Shown: one piece after another, positions 54,299 through 64,000 of the stretch
Numbering within the stretch: position 1 is the first letter of the stretch
Layout of the letters: every line of letters starts with the position of its first letter
From: Brachybacterium kimchii
GTDB taxonomy: Bacteria > Actinomycetota > Actinomycetes > Actinomycetales > Dermabacteraceae
Direction of reading: 5' to 3'
DNA: 64,000 nt
Assembly (NCBI RefSeq): GCF_023373525.1
Contig: NZ_CP097218.1
Coordinates: 1,364,001-1,428,000 of the forward strand
Notes under the pieces: model-generated
What the model saw: the letters and a program-made list of their open reading frames with translations, nothing else
Told to the model about the DNA's origin: nothing
The model's database searches: none
Made by a program: the position numbers and the translations under genes

Positions 54299-56715
<2,417 letters not shown>

Positions 56716-56813: not shown

Positions 56814-57950
56814 TCAGCGCAGGGAGATCCGCAGCACCTGCGTGAGCTGCGCGAGCAGGTCGTCGGGTCCGCTCAGCTCGTGGGAGCGCTCGCGGGAGGC
56901 CCGCTCGGCGCTCCGCCGCGCCCCCTCCTCGCGCAGGGAGGTGATCGCCCGGGCGAGGGCGGCCGGGTCCCCGACGGGGACGAGGTGCGCCGCCCGTCCC
57001 GTGACCAGGCGGGTGCCGCCGGCGTCGGTCGCGACGATCGCGCGGCCGGCGCGCAGGGCCTCCTGCAGGAACACCGGCTGTCCCTCCCACAGCGCCGAGG
57101 AGACCACGAGGTCGCAGTCGGCGAGCAGATCGGGAACGTCCTCGCGCCTGCCGAGCAGCTCGACGGGAAGGTGCTCGGCGCGGATGCGCCCGCTGAGATG
57201 CGACGCGAGGGGCCCGTCCCCCGCGATCCGCACGCGGAGCCCGGGAGCGGCCGGGACGGCCTCGGCGACGAGCAGGCCCAGGGCGTCCAGGAGGTCGTCG
57301 AGCCCCTTCTGCGGGGCGAGCCGGGCGACGACGAGCACGTCGAGCACGCCGGGCTCGTCGGGTTCAACGGGTTCGCCGTGCTCGTCCCGGGCGGGATCCG
57401 CCGACGCGTCGGGTGCGGTGACCCGCGCGGCGGCGTGCGCCCCGGGCCCGGGCAGCGCGGGGATGAGAGCGTGCTCGACCTCCGGGACGCCCCGCACGAG
57501 CGGGTCGAGGTCCGGGGACACGGTGAGGACCGCGTCGGCGCGGGAGCGGACGACCCGCAGCAGGAGGCGTCCCATGGCGCGCACCGCACGCGGTCCGACG
57601 ACGCGGTTGTGCAGCGTCACCACGAGGCGGGGTCCGCGGCCGCGCGGCCCGCGGGCGAGAGCGGCGAGCGCCCCGGCGCGCAGCCCGTGGCCATGGACCG
57701 CGTCGACCGGGGGCCGGGCTCCGGTCGCGCGCATGCGCTCGCGCAGGGTGCGCACGGTGCGGACGTCCGCCGGCGCGGGGCGCGAGGAGATCCGCACGCC
57801 CGCCTCGGGCAGTTCGACACCGGCCTCCGAGAGCACGGCGCGCTCCATCCGCACGTGCGCCGCCAGTCCCCCGCTCGCGGCGGGCTCGACGATCAGCACG
57901 CGGGGCGTGCGGCCGGCGGACGGCCGCTCCCCCTCCTGCATGCGCCTCAC
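56814..57950 (-). CDS. Glycosyltransferase family 4 (GT-B fold)
   Basis: 378 residues from the GTG at 57950, which overlaps the murJ stop (GTGA) and has GGAG 5 nt upstream; an ATG three codons later is an alternative. N-terminal Rossmann half starts RVLIVEPAASGGLAAHV. DAVHGHGLRAGALAAL and VVTLHNRVVGPRAV follow. The C-terminal donor half has VARLAPQKGLDDLLDAL and the E-x7-E motif in EGQPVFLQEAL. A Pro/Glu/Asp-rich linker (about 175-205) joins the halves. No membrane segment. It follows a flippase and a PNPT-like gene, so it may add a sugar to a lipid-linked glycan. Donor and acceptor are unknown. Confidence 0.87.
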   Translation of the reverse strand: MRRMQEGERPSAGRTPRVLIVEPAASGGLAAHVRMERAVLSEAGVELPEAGVRISSRPAPADVRTVRTLRERMRATGARPPVDAVHGHGLRAGALAALARGPRGRGPRLVVTLHNRVVGPRAVRAMGRLLLRVVRSRADAVLTVSPDLDPLVRGVPEVEHALIPALPGPGAHAAARVTAPDASADPARDEHGEPVEPDEPGVLDVLVVARLAPQKGLDDLLDALGLLVAEAVPAAPGLRVRIAGDGPLASHLSGRIRAEHLPVELLGRREDVPDLLADCDLVVSSALWEGQPVFLQEALRAGRAIVATDAGGTRLVTGRAAHLVPVGDPAALARAITSLREEGARRSAERASRERSHELSGPDDLLAQLTQVLRISLR

Positions 57951-59587
57951 GCCTGCTCCGTGCGCCCGCGGCGCAGGCGCGCCAGCAGCGAGGCCGCGGT
58001 GCGGCGGTCGGCGAGGGTCATGGCGACGAGGGCGAGGACCATGCCGATGCCGCCGGTGAGCACCCCGATCAGCACGCACAGCAGCTCGGACGTGCCCTGG
58101 GTGACCATCGCGCGTCCCAGGAGCAGTCCCGGGATCGCCGCGGCCACGGAGACCACGGCCCCGATCGGCACGACGCGCACCAGGGGCGCGCCGCCCTCGA
58201 CGCCCTCGAGGAGATCGGCGACCCGCGCGAGGCCGGTGATGCCCGAGACCCACATGCCAGCGCTCAGGGCGAAGGCGAAGGCGGTCGCGGCCACGGCCGA
58301 GCTGCCGGAGTTCGAGAGCACCGCCACGACCACGATGAGGATCCCGCCCACGACCCAGCCGACGGAGCCCACGAGCAGCGCGTCCCGCGCCCGCATCGCC
58401 GCGGACAGCACCCGGGTGCACTGCATGGTGATCGCGTACGGCAGCAGCCCCACGGAGAGGGCGGCGACGACCGCGCCGACGCCGACCGCGCCCGCGCGGT
58501 CGATGTGGTGGAAGAAGGCCTCGAGGGCCGGGCCGGCGGCGAACAGCGTCGCCGCGCCCACGGTCCCGATCACGACGACCGAGCGCAGGGACGCGCGGGC
58601 GGTGACGGCGAAGCCCCGCAGGTCCCCGACCAGGCGCTGCTCGGACAGATGCGGGAACACGCTCGTGATCAGCGGGACCACGAGCACGGCGTAGGGCAGC
58701 AGGTAGATCGCCTGCCCGTACTGGAACACGGGCAGGGTGCCGGTGCCGCCCGTGCGCATGGCCAGCAGCAGCACGAGCGCGAGGGCGAGCTGCTGCGCGC
58801 CGACCGCGCCGAGCCCGGCTCCCGCGAGGCGCAGGGCCCTGCTGCCCATCCCGGCGGGCATCCGCAGGGTGGGGCGCAGGCGCAGCCCGGCGCGTGCGGC
58901 CGGCACGAGCACCGACAGCGCCATCACGACGACCCCGGCCGTCGTGCCCCAGGCGAGCACTCCGTGCGCGAACGGGGAGATCGTCGAGGCCGTCGCCACG
59001 GCGGGCACCGCGGCCGCGTACACGCGGTAGGAGATGATCACGACGAGCGAGGACAGCAGCGGCACCAGGGCGGGCCACAGGAACCGCTTGCGGGCCTGGA
59101 GGTACGCGCCCAGCACCACCGTCACCCCGTACATCGGCAGCTGCAGCGCGAAGATCCGCAGCATCGACGCGCCGAGCTCGACGACCGACTCGTCGGAGTC
59201 GCCGCTGGTGAGGACGAGCGAGGCGATCGGGCCGGCGAGCAGGCCGACGAGGAGGGCGAGCGGGATCGTGAGCAGGAGCATCCAGCTCAGCATCGCGGAG
59301 ATGATGCCGTCGGCCCGTCGCCTGCCCTCCCCGGTCTCGTCGTTCTCGACCAGGCCCGCCACGAGCGGGACCACACTGGCGGCGAGCGCGCCGCCGGCGG
59401 CGACCTCGAACAGGAGGTTCGGGACGAGGTTCGCGCTCGAGTACGCGGTGCCGACGTCACCTGCGCCCACGCTCGCGCCGAAGACGAGGTAGCGCAGGAA
59501 GCCGACGATGCGCGCGACGAGGGTGACCACGAGGATCACCGTCGCGCCGCGCACGATGACCCGTGCGGTCGAGGACGGGGCGCTCAT
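57947..59587 (-). CDS. murJ: MurJ-like lipid flippase (MOP superfamily)
   Basis: 546 residues with about 14 membrane helices. N-terminal ARIVGFLRYLVFGASVGAGDVGTAYSSANLVPNLLFEVAAGGALAASVVP is the MurJ signature region (quoted positions 25-74), and GAYLQARKRFLWPAL and LLPYAVLVVPLITSVFPHLSE are also typical. Confidence 0.5.
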   Translation of the reverse strand: MSAPSSTARVIVRGATVILVVTLVARIVGFLRYLVFGASVGAGDVGTAYSSANLVPNLLFEVAAGGALAASVVPLVAGLVENDETGEGRRRADGIISAMLSWMLLLTIPLALLVGLLAGPIASLVLTSGDSDESVVELGASMLRIFALQLPMYGVTVVLGAYLQARKRFLWPALVPLLSSLVVIISYRVYAAAVPAVATASTISPFAHGVLAWGTTAGVVVMALSVLVPAARAGLRLRPTLRMPAGMGSRALRLAGAGLGAVGAQQLALALVLLLAMRTGGTGTLPVFQYGQAIYLLPYAVLVVPLITSVFPHLSEQRLVGDLRGFAVTARASLRSVVVIGTVGAATLFAAGPALEAFFHHIDRAGAVGVGAVVAALSVGLLPYAITMQCTRVLSAAMRARDALLVGSVGWVVGGILIVVVAVLSNSGSSAVAATAFAFALSAGMWVSGITGLARVADLLEGVEGGAPLVRVVPIGAVVSVAAAIPGLLLGRAMVTQGTSELLCVLIGVLTGGIGMVLALVAMTLADRRTAASLLARLRRGRTEQA

Positions 59588-60480
59588 GCGGGAGTGCTCC
59601 CCTCGTCCTCGGATCCCGCGGGATCGGGTGCGCGGCGGCCCCAGCGGTCGAGGCGGCGCAGCGCGGGCGTCGCGTCGATGACGGCGCTGAAGCTCACGCG
59701 CTCGCTCGCGAGGGTGAGGGCCCCGAGACCGCCGAGCACGAGGAGGCGGGGTCCCGCGGGGAGTCGGCGCGCGGCCGCCGCGCCCACCAGGGCGCCGAGG
59801 GCGTTGGCGCCGGTGTCGCCGAGCATGCCGCGCTCGGCGAGGTCGCCGGGCAGGGCCGCGAGCCCGGCGACGGCGGCGATCGCGGCGAGGGCCCTGCCCT
59901 CCCGTGCGCGCGGGCTGCGGGCGGGCGGGAGGGCGAGCACGAGCGCGCAGGCCGTGGTGGCCTTGAGCGCGCGCCCGGGGCGCAGGTCCAGGAGGTTCGC
60001 GAGGTTCGCGGCGCCCGCGGCGACGCCCGCGTCGACCAGTGTGCCGGCCCCGGCCCCGGCCCCGGCTCCGGCGGGGAGGGCGCGCGCGTCCGTCGGCGCG
60101 CCGGCTTCCGTCGACGCGCCCGCGTCCGGACCGAGGGTCCTCGCCGTGCGGACACGGGCCGCGGCGGCGTCGAGCAGGCAGACCACGGGGATCCCCAGGG
60201 CCTTCGCGGCGCCCGTGGTCAGGCGTCCGCGACGCAGGGCGCCGAGGTGGCCGCGCAGCCCCTTGGTCGGGGTGATCCCGCGGGAGCGCAGCCAGGGCTC
60301 GAGGACGTCGTCGGCGAGACCCAGTCCGCCGACGGCGGCGACGGCGAGCGCATCGCCGCGCAGGCCGCGCGCGGCGAGAGCGGCCACCGCTCCCCCGGCC
60401 ACGGCGACGCCCTCCGCGAGGGTCACGCTGCGACCGGCGTGGTTCGTGCGGCGCAGGGCGCCGGACATCCCACCCGTCAT
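59584..60480 (-). CDS. PNPT/MraY-superfamily-like membrane protein
   Basis: 298 residues, mostly Ala/Leu/Gly membrane segments. RTNHAGRSVTLAEG near the N-terminus parallels the entry motif of polyprenyl-phosphate sugar-1-phosphate transferases. GLGLADDVLEP corresponds to their catalytic Asp pair, and GDTGANALGALVG to the conserved GDxGS motif. The Asn-Asp loop is degenerate (ANLANLLDLRPGRALKA). The protein is shorter than MraY (320-360) and carries a Gly/Ala linker (about 135-160) coded by a hexanucleotide repeat. It may therefore be a divergent transferase or an inactive relative. It overlaps steB and murJ as ATGA. Confidence 0.65.
   Translation of the reverse strand: MTGGMSGALRRTNHAGRSVTLAEGVAVAGGAVAALAARGLRGDALAVAAVGGLGLADDVLEPWLRSRGITPTKGLRGHLGALRRGRLTTGAAKALGIPVVCLLDAAAARVRTARTLGPDAGASTEAGAPTDARALPAGAGAGAGAGTLVDAGVAAGAANLANLLDLRPGRALKATTACALVLALPPARSPRAREGRALAAIAAVAGLAALPGDLAERGMLGDTGANALGALVGAAAARRLPAGPRLLVLGGLGALTLASERVSFSAVIDATPALRRLDRWGRRAPDPAGSEDEGSTPA
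60044..60073. repeat. Hexanucleotide repeat inside the PNPT-like gene
   Basis: Five copies of CCGGCC or one-base variants in a row, encoding alternating Gly-Ala in the linker of the PNPT-like protein. Unit changes would keep the frame. Confidence 0.75.
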
Positions 60481-61508
60481 CCCTCGCCTCCGTCGCTCGC
60501 GCCGGATCCCGCCCCGGAGCCCGACGAGTCCCCGGCCCCGCCGGGCACCTCCGGCACGCGGTCCTGGGCGTCGGCGGCGGTCCCGTAGCTCCCCTGCTCG
60601 CCGCGCACCTGCTCGGCGAGGGCGAGCACGGCGATCGTCGGCCCGTCGGGCTCCTGCAGGCGGTCGCCGCTGGAGAGGTCGGTGAAGCGCGAGTCCCCGC
60701 GCACCGTGCGCAGCAGGCCCGCGCTGTCGTCGTTCGAGGGGGTCGAGCCCGAGACCACCGTGGGGATCTTCGCGCCGACCATGCGCTCGAGCAGCCCGGT
60801 CTGGGCCTCGAGCAGCATCTGGGCGCGCTCGGCCGCGGTCGAGGCGTCGTCCCCGCCCACGGTGAGGTCCGTGGGCGCGGCGCTCGCGAAGATCATCGAG
60901 TCCACGGGGGCGTCGGTGCTGCCGTCGACGTCGACGAGGCGGGCGTCCGTCAGCACGGCCCACAGCTTCTGGCGCTGCTCGTCGCCGATCGAGGTGTCCA
61001 CGAGCAGGTGGCCGATGATCGTGGAGAGAGCACCGGAGCTGGAATCGGTGTCGGACTCGGCCGCCGTGACGAGCGCGCTGTCCGCCTCCCGGAGGGAGTC
61101 GAGGGCCGTGGTGCGGGTGTCCTCCTGCTCGGGGTCCCACAGGGAGCTGTCCAGGCGCACGCTCAGCGGCGTGCCCGCGCCCGCCTCGTCCAGCAGGGAG
61201 TCGAGAGTGCTGACCTGGTTGCGCACAGAGTCGTCGTCGTAGACCACGGCGGTGCTGCGTCCGCTCAGGGTGCCCGCGACGAGCTCGGGCGAGGTCTGCG
61301 AGATGAACGCGCTGAGCTCGTCGTTCTGCGAGGTCAGAGAGTCGTTGGAGGTGCGCAGGTCGTCCTTCTCCGTGCGCAGCTGCTCGACCTGGCCGGTGAG
61401 CTGGGAGCCCAGGTTCTCGCGCAGAGGTCCGGCCCCGAGCACGATCCCCACCGCGAGGGCGAGGAACACGGAGATCAGGGAGACCAGGTGGTAGCGGAAG
61501 TCGATCAC
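60477..61508 (-). CDS. steB: SteB/MctB family membrane protein (DUF3186)
   Basis: 343 residues: MIDFRYHLVSLISVFLALAVGIVLGAGPLRE is the family N-terminus, with one membrane helix (about 8-27). A coiled coil (about 32-66, LRTEKDDLRTSNDSLTSQNDEL) follows, then an extracytoplasmic domain of about 240 residues and a Gly/Ser tail. Relatives are called MctB (copper homeostasis) in mycobacteria and SteB, partner of SteA in septation, in streptomycetes and corynebacteria. I prefer SteB because steA is 12 bp upstream. GTG start. Confidence 0.87.
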   Translation of the reverse strand: MIDFRYHLVSLISVFLALAVGIVLGAGPLRENLGSQLTGQVEQLRTEKDDLRTSNDSLTSQNDELSAFISQTSPELVAGTLSGRSTAVVYDDDSVRNQVSTLDSLLDEAGAGTPLSVRLDSSLWDPEQEDTRTTALDSLREADSALVTAAESDTDSSSGALSTIIGHLLVDTSIGDEQRQKLWAVLTDARLVDVDGSTDAPVDSMIFASAAPTDLTVGGDDASTAAERAQMLLEAQTGLLERMVGAKIPTVVSGSTPSNDDSAGLLRTVRGDSRFTDLSSGDRLQEPDGPTIAVLALAEQVRGEQGSYGTAADAQDRVPEVPGGAGDSSGSGAGSGASDGGEG

Positions 61509-61520
61509 GGACCGAGGCTC

Positions 61521-62702
61521 CTAGGTTCCGGTGGCGGGTCGGGTGGCGAACAGGGAGGTGAACCATGAGATGGCGTCGTCCCATCGTGCACCGAGGATCT
61601 GGAAGAGCGCCTGTCCGCCGGGCGTGGCCCACATGGCCACGGAGAGGGCGAGCAGGCCGGCGACGGCCAGCAGCACGAGCTGCAGGGTGGAGATCCGCTG
61701 GCGATAGAGCCGGGAGACGCCCTTGGCGTCCACGAGCTTGGAGCCCACGCGCAGCCGGGTGAGGAAGGTCGAGCTCATGCCGGCGCGGCCCTTGTCGAGG
61801 AACTCCTCGAGGGTGCCGTGGGTGCCGACGGCCACGATCACGCTCGCGCCCTTCTCGTCGGCCAGGAGCATCGCGATGTCCTCGCTGGTGCCGGCGGCGG
61901 GGAACACCACGGCGTCCTCGGCGAGATCGAGCTCCGCCAGGCGCTCCATGCCCGGGGCGCGGCCGTCGCGATAGGCGTGCACCACGAGCTCGGCGCCCGA
62001 TGCCAGCGCCCTGTCGGAGACGGAGTCCATGTCCCCGATGATCATGTCGGGCTTCCAGCCGGCCTCGAGGACCGCGTCGGCGCCGCCGTCGACGCCGATC
62101 ACCACGGGTCGGTTCTCGCGCAGGAACGGACCGAGCGTCGCGAGGTCCTCCTTGTAGTGGTAGCCGCGCACGACGATCAGGACGGGGCGGCGGTCCATGA
62201 CGGTGCGCACCTCGGGCGCGCCCACGCCGTCCAGCAGCAGGTCCTTCTCCAGGAGCATGTACTCCAGGGTGTTGCGGGCGAACAGCTCGAGCTGCTCGGA
62301 GAGGCCCTCGCGGGAGGCCTCGAGGGAGGCGGCGATCGTGGCGGGGTCCTGGCGGGTCCCACGCGCGAGCGTACTCCCGCCCTCGCGGACGACGCCGTCG
62401 GCGACGGTGAGGCGGGCGCCCTCGCGGACCTTCTCGAACAGCTCGGGGCCGCAGTCGTCGACGAGCGCGATGCCGTGGTCCACGAGGATCTGCGGCCCGG
62501 CGTTCGGGTACCGGCCGGAGGTGGAGCGGGCGGCGTTGAGGACGGCAGCGGGCGCCTTCTCGACGAGCGCCTCGGCGGCGACGCGGTCGATGTCCTCGTG
62601 GTCGATGACCGCGATGTCGCCGGGCTCGAGGCGCTTGGTGAGGTCCTTCGTGCGCCGGCCGATGCGCGCGGTCCCCAGGACGGTGCCGACGGTCGTGCTC
62701 AT
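61521..62702 (-). CDS. steA: Cytokinetic ring protein SteA
   Basis: 393 residues. An N-terminal domain (RIGRRTKDLTKRLEPGDIAVIDHEDIDRVAAEALVEK region, about 12-60) precedes a thiamin-pyrophosphokinase-like core with VVIGVDGGADAVLEAG, KPDMIIGDMDSVSD and TSEDIAMLLADEKG. One C-terminal membrane helix (about 345-365) and a short tail follow. In corynebacteria SteA joins the division ring and recruits SteB. Enzymatic activity of the kinase-like core is unproven. The ATG overlaps the recN stop (ATGA). Confidence 0.92.
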   Translation of the reverse strand: MSTTVGTVLGTARIGRRTKDLTKRLEPGDIAVIDHEDIDRVAAEALVEKAPAAVLNAARSTSGRYPNAGPQILVDHGIALVDDCGPELFEKVREGARLTVADGVVREGGSTLARGTRQDPATIAASLEASREGLSEQLELFARNTLEYMLLEKDLLLDGVGAPEVRTVMDRRPVLIVVRGYHYKEDLATLGPFLRENRPVVIGVDGGADAVLEAGWKPDMIIGDMDSVSDRALASGAELVVHAYRDGRAPGMERLAELDLAEDAVVFPAAGTSEDIAMLLADEKGASVIVAVGTHGTLEEFLDKGRAGMSSTFLTRLRVGSKLVDAKGVSRLYRQRISTLQLVLLAVAGLLALSVAMWATPGGQALFQILGARWDDAISWFTSLFATRPATGT

Positions 62703-64000
62703 CGCCCCTCCCCCGGCGCCTGCCCCGGCGCGGACTCCTGCGCCGACGGGTCCGCCGAGTCGTCGAGCAGCTCCCGTGCGTGGGCGAGGGCGAGGTCGCT
62801 GGTCTCCCCGGAGAGCATGCGGGCGAGCTCGCCGATGCGCCCCTCGCGGTCCAGTCTCTGCACGGTGGAGCTCGTGCCGCCGTCCTCGCTGTGCTTGACG
62901 ATCTGCAGGTGGGTGGAGGCGTGGGAGGCGACCTGCGGGAGGTGCGTGACGACGATGACCTGCGCGTTCTCGGCGAGCCGCTGGAGGCGCTGGCCGACGG
63001 CGAGGGCTGCGCGGCCGCCGATGCCCGCGTCGATCTCGTCGAAGACGAACACGGGGGCGGCGGTGCGGTCGTCGCGGGAGGAGCCGAGCGCGACCTCGAG
63101 GGCGAGCATGACGCGCGAGAGCTCGCCGCCGCTCGCGGCGGTCGCGACGGGCAGGTGGTCGGCGCCCGGGTGGGGCGCGAGGAGGAACGCCACGCGATCG
63201 CGGCCGTGCGGACGGGGCGAGTGCGGGGCGACCTCGACCTCGAGGCTCGCCTGCGGCATCTCGAGGTGGACGAGCTCGGACTCGACGGCGCGCGCGAGGC
63301 GCGAGGCGGCGTCGCCCCGGGCCCCGGTGAGCGCCTCCGCGGCCTCGTCGAGGGCGGTCTCGAGGCCCGTCATCTCCTCGCGGGCGGCGGACAGCTCGGT
63401 CTCGGCGCCGTCGAAGCGGTCGAGGTCGGCGGCGGCGGTGCGGGAGCTCTCGAGCAGCTCGCCGATGGTCGCGGCGCCGCCGAGGACGGGCCCGAGGTCC
63501 CGCACCAGCGTGGTCACCTCGTGGAGGCGCTCGTTGGCCTGCTCGACGCTCCCGGGAGAGGCGTCGATGCCGTCCGCGTAGCGGGAGAGGTCGGCGGCGG
63601 CGTCGGAGAGGTCGAGGCGCAGGCTCTCGAGCCTGCCGAGGGTGCCCTCGAGCTCGGGGTCCGTGCCGGATGCGGTGCGCACCTGGTCGATCGCGAGGTC
63701 GAGGAGGGAGCCGGCCGCGGGGCCGTCGTCCTGTCCGAGCAGCAGCGTGGACGCCTGCTCGGCGGCGGCGCGGAGGTCCACGGCGTGGTTGAGCCTCTCG
63801 AGCTGGGCGCGCAGGCTCTCGTCCTCGCCGTCCTGCGGGTCGACCTCCTCGATGCGCTCGAGGGCCGTGCGCAGCTCGTCCCCTCGGCGGTCGCGCTCGG
63901 CGACGAGGCGCTCGAGCTCCTCGATGCGACCGCGCAGCTCCTGGTGACGGTCCCAGAGCTCGCGGTGGCGCTGCAGCAGGGGGCCGACGGTGTCGCCGGC
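62699..64000 (-). CDS. recN: DNA repair protein RecN, C-terminal part (gene runs off the right edge)
   Basis: SMC-like ATPase in double-strand break repair. The visible 433 residues begin inside the coiled coil (LQRHRELWDRHQELRGRIEEL), include EEVDPQDGEDESLRAQLERLNHA, a second coiled-coil arm (about 105-210 of the visible part), the ABC signature GGELSRVMLALEV, Walker B VFVFDEIDAGIGG and the switch VTHLPQVASHA. The frame is open to the window edge, so the N-terminal Walker A part lies outside. First visible gene of the recN-steA-steB-PNPT-murJ-GT operon. Confidence 0.95.
   Translation of the reverse strand, partial: AGDTVGPLLQRHRELWDRHQELRGRIEELERLVAERDRRGDELRTALERIEEVDPQDGEDESLRAQLERLNHAVDLRAAAEQASTLLLGQDDGPAAGSLLDLAIDQVRTASGTDPELEGTLGRLESLRLDLSDAAADLSRYADGIDASPGSVEQANERLHEVTTLVRDLGPVLGGAATIGELLESSRTAAADLDRFDGAETELSAAREEMTGLETALDEAAEALTGARGDAASRLARAVESELVHLEMPQASLEVEVAPHSPRPHGRDRVAFLLAPHPGADHLPVATAASGGELSRVMLALEVALGSSRDDRTAAPVFVFDEIDAGIGGRAALAVGQRLQRLAENAQVIVVTHLPQVASHASTHLQIVKHSEDGGTSSTVQRLDREGRIGELARMLSGETSDLALAHARELLDDSADPSAQESAPGQAPGEGR

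Follow-up and report, generated by a model that had tools for sequence, protein, structure and literature searches.

Why two cell-division genes should stand head to tail with genes resembling those of lipid-linked sugar metabolism is the question raised by positions 56814-64000 of the window, that is, of the whole 64,000-nucleotide stretch of the Brachybacterium kimchii genome that was analysed. Six genes follow one another there: the 3' part of recN, steA, steB, a PNPT-like gene, a murJ-like gene (murJ2) and a GT4-family glycosyltransferase gene. In Corynebacterium and Mycobacterium SteA and SteB control daughter-cell separation through the endopeptidase RipA (PMC6705760, PMC12977500), and steA-steB lies downstream of recN and upstream of pyrG in these organisms as it does here. 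In Mycobacteriales, however, pyrG comes directly after steB, whereas in the window the PNPT, murJ2 and GT genes stand between the two. Term searches of PMC6705760, PMC12977500 and PMC12338722 returned no mention of PNPT, MurJ2 or GT operon partners, and the literature searched, which covered few subscription papers, contained no description of the recN-steAB-PNPT-MurJ2-GT combination and no functional data on the PNPT-like protein (P0003) or MurJ2. As SteAB is known from Corynebacterium and Mycobacterium, both of which are without these neighbours, its wider context has probably been overlooked. The reading favoured here, at a probability of roughly 0.6, is that of a small lipid-linked saccharide module, made up of the PNPT-like protein, the GT and MurJ2 and acting together with SteAB. 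Given its occurrence across most of the phylum, the cluster suggests that a lipid-linked sugar pathway not described so far is linked to the final stage of cell division.

Gene layout between recN and pyrG

Sequence and family scans located all six genes, each on the minus strand, where the initial annotation had placed them. The conserved interval opens with recN (62699..64000; TIGR00634, 313 bits), which is cut by the window edge, and its downstream boundary is pyrG (54883..56709, minus strand). The latter encodes CTP synthase, is found downstream in most loci that extend that far and is treated as context outside the claimed pathway. steA (61521..62702) scored 497.4 bits against NF040608, for which the cut-off is 150, matched PF12555 and encodes a cytokinetic-ring protein with a thiamin-pyrophosphokinase-like pocket and a C-terminal TM segment. 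steB, or mctB (60477..61508), scored 223.8 bits against PF11382 (gathering score 25.6), a family of single-pass RipA activators, and its product is a putative binder and activator of RipA. The PNPT-like gene (59584..60480) encodes P0003, a membrane protein of 298 amino acids recognized by its AF2 fold and family profile, and murJ2 (57947..59587) encodes a MurJ-like flippase with 138.2 bits against PF03023 (gathering score 27.4). The GT4 product (56814..57950) exceeded the gathering scores of both PF13692 (89.2 bits) and PF00534 (76.2 bits) and reached no specific equivalog in an NCBIfam scan. Its start is either the GTG at 57950 or the ATG at 57941, 9 nt further in.

Read off the sequence, recN and steA share an ATGA overlap, the GTG start of steB follows steA after 12 bp and steB and PNPT overlap by another ATGA, all as described in the initial annotation. 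The 4 bp gap that it gave for PNPT/murJ turned out to be a 4-nt ATGA overlap, while its GTGA overlap between murJ and GT is present if the GT starts at the GTG. Stop/start overlaps of 4 nt are found at four of the five junctions of the run, and in related loci they recur in frame at steB/PNPT (47 of 78), PNPT/MurJ2 (65 of 80) and MurJ2/GT4 (44 of 61). On account of this recurrence the coupling goes beyond chance, which bears out the earlier proposal of translational coupling. No promoter or terminator emerged when the region was scanned, and a repeat search returned GC-rich coding similarity only.

Linkage with SteA and variation in gene content

The distribution of the PNPT family was compared with that of SteA in 396 genomes sampled across Actinomycetota. 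Both were found in 131, SteA only in 23, PNPT only in nine and neither in 233, giving a Fisher p of about 4e-68 that ignores phylogeny and is descriptive only. Coordinates were at hand for 111 pairs, 110 of which lay on one contig; in 108 of the 111 PNPT lay no more than 15 kb downstream of steA, on the same strand, with a median gap of 1.7 kb. Judged by genome sequence, the tie of PNPT to SteA outside Mycobacteriales is about as tight as that of an operon partner can be. Genomes with SteA only were mainly those of a Mycobacteriaceae-like family (f22; 14 genomes), the rest including G268 and fragmented assemblies, and Mycobacteriales, where SteAB was studied, are without the PNPT family. Five Streptomyces-like genomes (L161-L165) were among those with PNPT only and carry recN-PNPT-GT4-..-pyrG without steA or steB. 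The labels Mycobacteriaceae-like and Streptomyces-like were assigned from genome size and gene order. Within the order, 22 genomes outside the genus held PNPT and MurJ2 together in 13 cases and lacked both in nine. SteA was present without PNPT in four of the 22; in two of these (G046 and G050) the contig ends in steB, and the other two (G044 and G052) represent a true joint loss of PNPT and MurJ2.

A set of 80 named loci, chosen for holding PNPT and hence biased toward close relatives, showed the arrangement recN-steA-steB-PNPT-murJ2-(GT4)-pyrG in Dermabacteraceae, Cellulomonadaceae, Intrasporangiaceae, Actinomycetaceae, Kribbella and Micromonosporaceae. SteA and SteB were missing from one of the 80 and recN from two, one of these being a short contig. 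Individual layouts differ. PNPT-MurJ2 of Nostocoides jenkinsii (L084) has neither recN nor steAB nearby, steAB of G427 (L158/L159) lies 1.8 Mb away from a MurJ2-PNPT pair still located between recN and pyrG, and at L156 (G347) PNPT is found between recN and steA, not downstream of steB.

Gene content within the interval varied considerably. The complete recN-steA-steB-PNPT-MurJ2-GT4-pyrG run was found in 52 loci, along with truncated forms, while 14 otherwise complete loci were without GT4. Another 21 loci read steA-steB-GT2-PNPT-pyrG with no MurJ2, and MurJ2 is missing from compact loci of many deep lineages, in which GT2 takes the place of GT4. As a result no single gene set is found throughout, which counts against the module, and the "minimal kit" of the initial annotation does not stand as a constant set. 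Its suggested co-occurrence check was answered favourably in that conservation of the module together with SteAB extends far outside the genus, although membership of MurJ2 and GT4 is variable. The gene order is also reshuffled with the set kept (PNPT-MurJ2-GT4, MurJ2-GT4-AP-PNPT and others). GT4 is assigned across loci by family-level matches that do not imply mutual orthology. The best matches of the GT2 proteins, a type with no member in the window, include polyprenyl-phosphate glycosyltransferases (AglJ, PpgS and dolichyl-phosphate hexose transferase), all at scores far below the curated cut-offs. In two actinobacterial families GT2 and PNPT are fused into single open frames, of 523 codons at L138:10263-11831 (minus strand) and of 419 codons at L147:7865-9121 (plus strand). 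Such fusions are the best sequence evidence at hand and support the placing of a sugar transferase and PNPT in one putative pathway.

An alkaline-phosphatase-like (AP) membrane protein is added, in various orders, at a mixed set of loci and is absent from the window. Roughly 730 amino acids long, it combines an alkaline-phosphatase-like ectodomain with a long membrane part and lies between steAB/GT4 and PNPT or pyrG (L123:10764-12956, L104:13561-15786; also L129, L139, L166 and others). In three loci (L155, L159 and L160) it is fused with GT2. It belongs to no Pfam or NCBIfam family, a PDB profile search gave only short, weak matches to the alkaline-phosphatase superfamily, and a metal Asp has apparently been lost in several copies.

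Part of the linkage described above could stem from inheritance of a stable chromosomal stretch. In its full form this explanation holds that recN..pyrG is an old and rarely rearranged neighbourhood in which PNPT, MurJ2 and GT make an envelope glycan unrelated to SteAB. The flanking of these genes by recN and pyrG in almost every lineage fits such an account, as do the PNPT that has stayed beside pyrG where steAB moved (L158/L159) and the independent losses of PNPT in Mycobacteriales and of SteAB in Streptomyces. Genes inside the interval have nevertheless been reordered and exchanged, yet PNPT has remained with SteAB; most other lineages have PNPT along with SteA, as reflected in the Fisher value given above, and the steB/PNPT overlap recurs in 47 of 78 loci. 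A conserved neighbourhood alone is accordingly held to be rather unlikely.

P0003, a divergent PNPT-like transferase

As a single sequence P0003 had no match in Pfam, NCBIfam or PDB. A PDB search with a profile of 70 relatives returned four sequences at E values up to 10, all of them MraY (E 0.018-0.068), and PF00953 was touched weakly by 29 of the 70, at best with 1.3e-4. A GT2-PNPT fusion, P0006, scored above the gathering score of PF00953 (28.3 vs 27 bits), which P0003, having no match, did not reach; this family was treated as a detection tool, superfamily membership being decided by fold and residues. The AF2 model of P0003 (pLDDT 90.8, pTM 0.88) aligned with MraY at Z 19.3 and with DPAGT1 at Z 18.1, the range being Z 15-19 over 218-239 residues, and the next fold scored 3.7. 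Foldseek E-values for the model were weak (best 0.054), as is common for remote homologues, and hhalign of P0003 with the genome's own MraY gave a probability of 6% (E 0.006). As modelled, P0003 is a real member of the PNPT superfamily and a new branch within MraY/WecA/DPAGT1, an assignment that was settled only by the family profile and the predicted fold. Both confirm the name PNPT-like, which had originally been given from motif recognition. Conservation across the phylum, together with the fold, rules out a frame artefact or chance membrane ORF.

The P0003 family is represented once per genome, in addition to proteins of the MraY and WecA/TagO types. Elsewhere in this genome PF00953 detected two MraY-type proteins and one of the WecA/TagO type (L001), so that P0003 is not its only MraY. 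The MraY-type genes are L002 (C1:2876823) and L003 (C1:1725172), and both have full motifs including the His motif. Together with a better-scoring MurJ elsewhere, these genes answer the question raised in the initial annotation of whether a second canonical mraY and murJ exist.

Residues D57, D58, D165, D222, H78 and P168 of P0003 were the same in all 132 sequences compared, which span the phylum. On the minus strand, the D57-D58 pair (60307..60312) aligns with the DD motif of MraY, D165 (59986..59988, within NLxNLLDLRPGR) with the first Asp of MraY NLTDGLDG, and D222 (59815..59817, within MLGDxGAN) matches the Mg-binding Asp in GDxGS of MraY. N162 corresponds to the Asn of NLTDGLDG in the profile alignment. 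P0003 thereby shares the whole fold, the DD motif, an N-L-x-x-x-D element and the GDxG Asp with MraY and DPAGT1/GPT, while it is shorter and only about 14-19% identical to MraY and DPAGT1. The N-x-x-N-x-x-D-G-x-D-G motif does not occur in the P0003 family, where ANLxNLLDLRPGR is found in its place, LDLRPGR standing for DGLDG with P168 at the second Asp and a nearly invariant R170. Nor does the family carry the C-terminal His motif (HHH or HxHH), H78 being the only His conserved throughout; the three PF00953 proteins of the genome carry both motifs. Loss of catalytic residues in homologs, named earlier as an outcome that would make a dedicated pathway unlikely, was thus not seen, the catalytic aspartates being kept in all 132 sequences. 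From these residues P0003 is probably active as a PNPT, though its donor or donor pocket would be a different one, and its substrate may differ because the His motif and the DGxDG uridine motif are missing. The same two changes bear on the donor assumed for the module and count against it.

The PNPT might accordingly use another donor, such as a CDP-linked polyol or other phospho-group, and make a lipid-linked phospho-compound instead of a classical lipid-PP-sugar, with the AP-like protein handling phospho-groups outside in other lineages. This overlaps with the lipid-linked saccharide module and the confidences in the two do not sum to one. The replaced DGLDG with its P168 and R170, the invariant H78, the constant neighbourhood of CTP synthase and the weak alkaline-phosphatase matches of the AP-like proteins would all be compatible with such chemistry. 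The GT partner fused to PNPT points to sugar chemistry instead, pyrG also adjoins steB where PNPT has been lost, and DPAGT1 uses UDP-GlcNAc though it too is without the bacterial His motif. A donor of this kind is therefore considered quite unlikely.

MurJ2 and the proposed pathway

By its sequence MurJ2 is an ancient paralogue and not the genome's canonical MurJ. The latter, located elsewhere, scores higher (223 vs 138 bits), and its presence rules out MurJ2 as the only flippase; MurJ2 also falls below the TIGR01695 murJ_mviN equivalog cut-off (151.2 vs 235.55 bits). A tree of 66 proteins gathered 31 operonic copies in one group, with two more (family f25) nearby, and placed 31 canonical proteins apart. 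The split between operonic and canonical actinobacterial MurJ had a support of 99-100, the 31 operonic copies being set off from all others by a branch with support 100 when two only-MurJ and two long or misread rows were left out. Among the 35 locus copies two fell with canonical MurJ, each of them the only MurJ of its genome. In two families (L148 and L157) the only MurJ of the genome, a canonical one, is found at the locus on the opposite strand. Additional MurJ copies in Streptomyces were considered as displaced MurJ2, and none grouped with the operonic clade. In common with the lipid II flippase MurJ, MurJ2 matches PF03023, a profile of its family finds MurJ of solved structure at E 2.5e-30, and R26 and R32, invariant or nearly so, align with R18 and R24 of E. 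coli MurJ; it differs in its separate clade and its score below TIGR01695, and its flipping activity is putative. The canonical MurJ of the genome adjoins DUF6049-like and pseudokinase-like genes, both named by resemblance.

A structural role, with PNPT and MurJ2 as pseudo-enzymes serving as a septal-membrane scaffold for SteAB, would be in line with the lost His motif and second DGxDG aspartate and with SteA itself being thiamin-pyrophosphokinase-like but not known as one (PMC12977500), and is nonetheless very improbable given catalytic Asp positions identical in 132/132 and the diphosphate-site arginines kept in MurJ2.

The most economical reading of the lipid-linked saccharide module is that a second series of the MraY-MurG-MurJ kind is encoded next to the cell-separation genes. 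In the cytoplasmic leaflet, PNPT would take a phospho-sugar (or a phospho-group like it) from a nucleotide donor and load it onto polyprenyl phosphate, after which GT4, or GT2 in other lineages, would add one or few sugars. The diphosphate-linked product would be flipped by MurJ2 and could then be used outside, or have its level read, during daughter-cell separation under SteA/SteB via RipA. Here we infer the substrate, the product, the flipping and any link to SteAB, be it physical or regulatory; the product put forward in the initial annotation, a septum-specific glycan or modified lipid II, is hypothetical. The module is supported by the co-occurrence and same-strand linkage of SteA and PNPT, the joint presence and absence of PNPT and MurJ2, the kept gene set, the GT2-PNPT fusions, the invariant Asp residues, the MraY/DPAGT1 fold and the MurJ2 arginines. 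Against it, SteAB controls RipA without PNPT, MurJ2 or GT in Corynebacterium and Mycobacterium (PMC6705760, PMC12977500), Streptomyces-like genomes have PNPT and GT4 without SteAB, and the G427 and Nostocoides jenkinsii layouts separate the genes. The earlier interpretation is thus supported in part: PNPT, flippase and GT appear real and are conserved, but SteAB stands alone in Mycobacteriales and PNPT with GT4 does so in Streptomyces.

The module is tied to SteAB through genetic linkage and one published hint: carbohydrate binding has been predicted for the pocket of SteA, and CgSteA is stabilised by GDP or UDP and not by ADP or NTPs (PMC12977500). An alternative role, activation of the MtrB kinase, has been described for mycobacterial SteA (PMC12338722); both the ligand and the MtrB data stem from organisms without the PNPT-MurJ2-GT module. 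Tentatively, and with some doubt, a lipid-linked glycan of its own, synthesised by a third branch of the PNPT superfamily and flipped by a second MurJ, might be delivered at the septum or sensed by the nucleotide/carbohydrate pocket of SteA. Cleavage of the wall by RipA would then be tied to lipid-carrier or nucleotide-sugar status, in an ancestral actinobacterial system lost from the mycobacterial models. Should the pathway exist, control of daughter-cell separation would include a lipid-linked sugar step, and the nucleotide- and carbohydrate-binding pocket of SteA would have an explanation. SteAB has also been reported beyond Actinobacteria, in Clostridial loci (PMC12977500).
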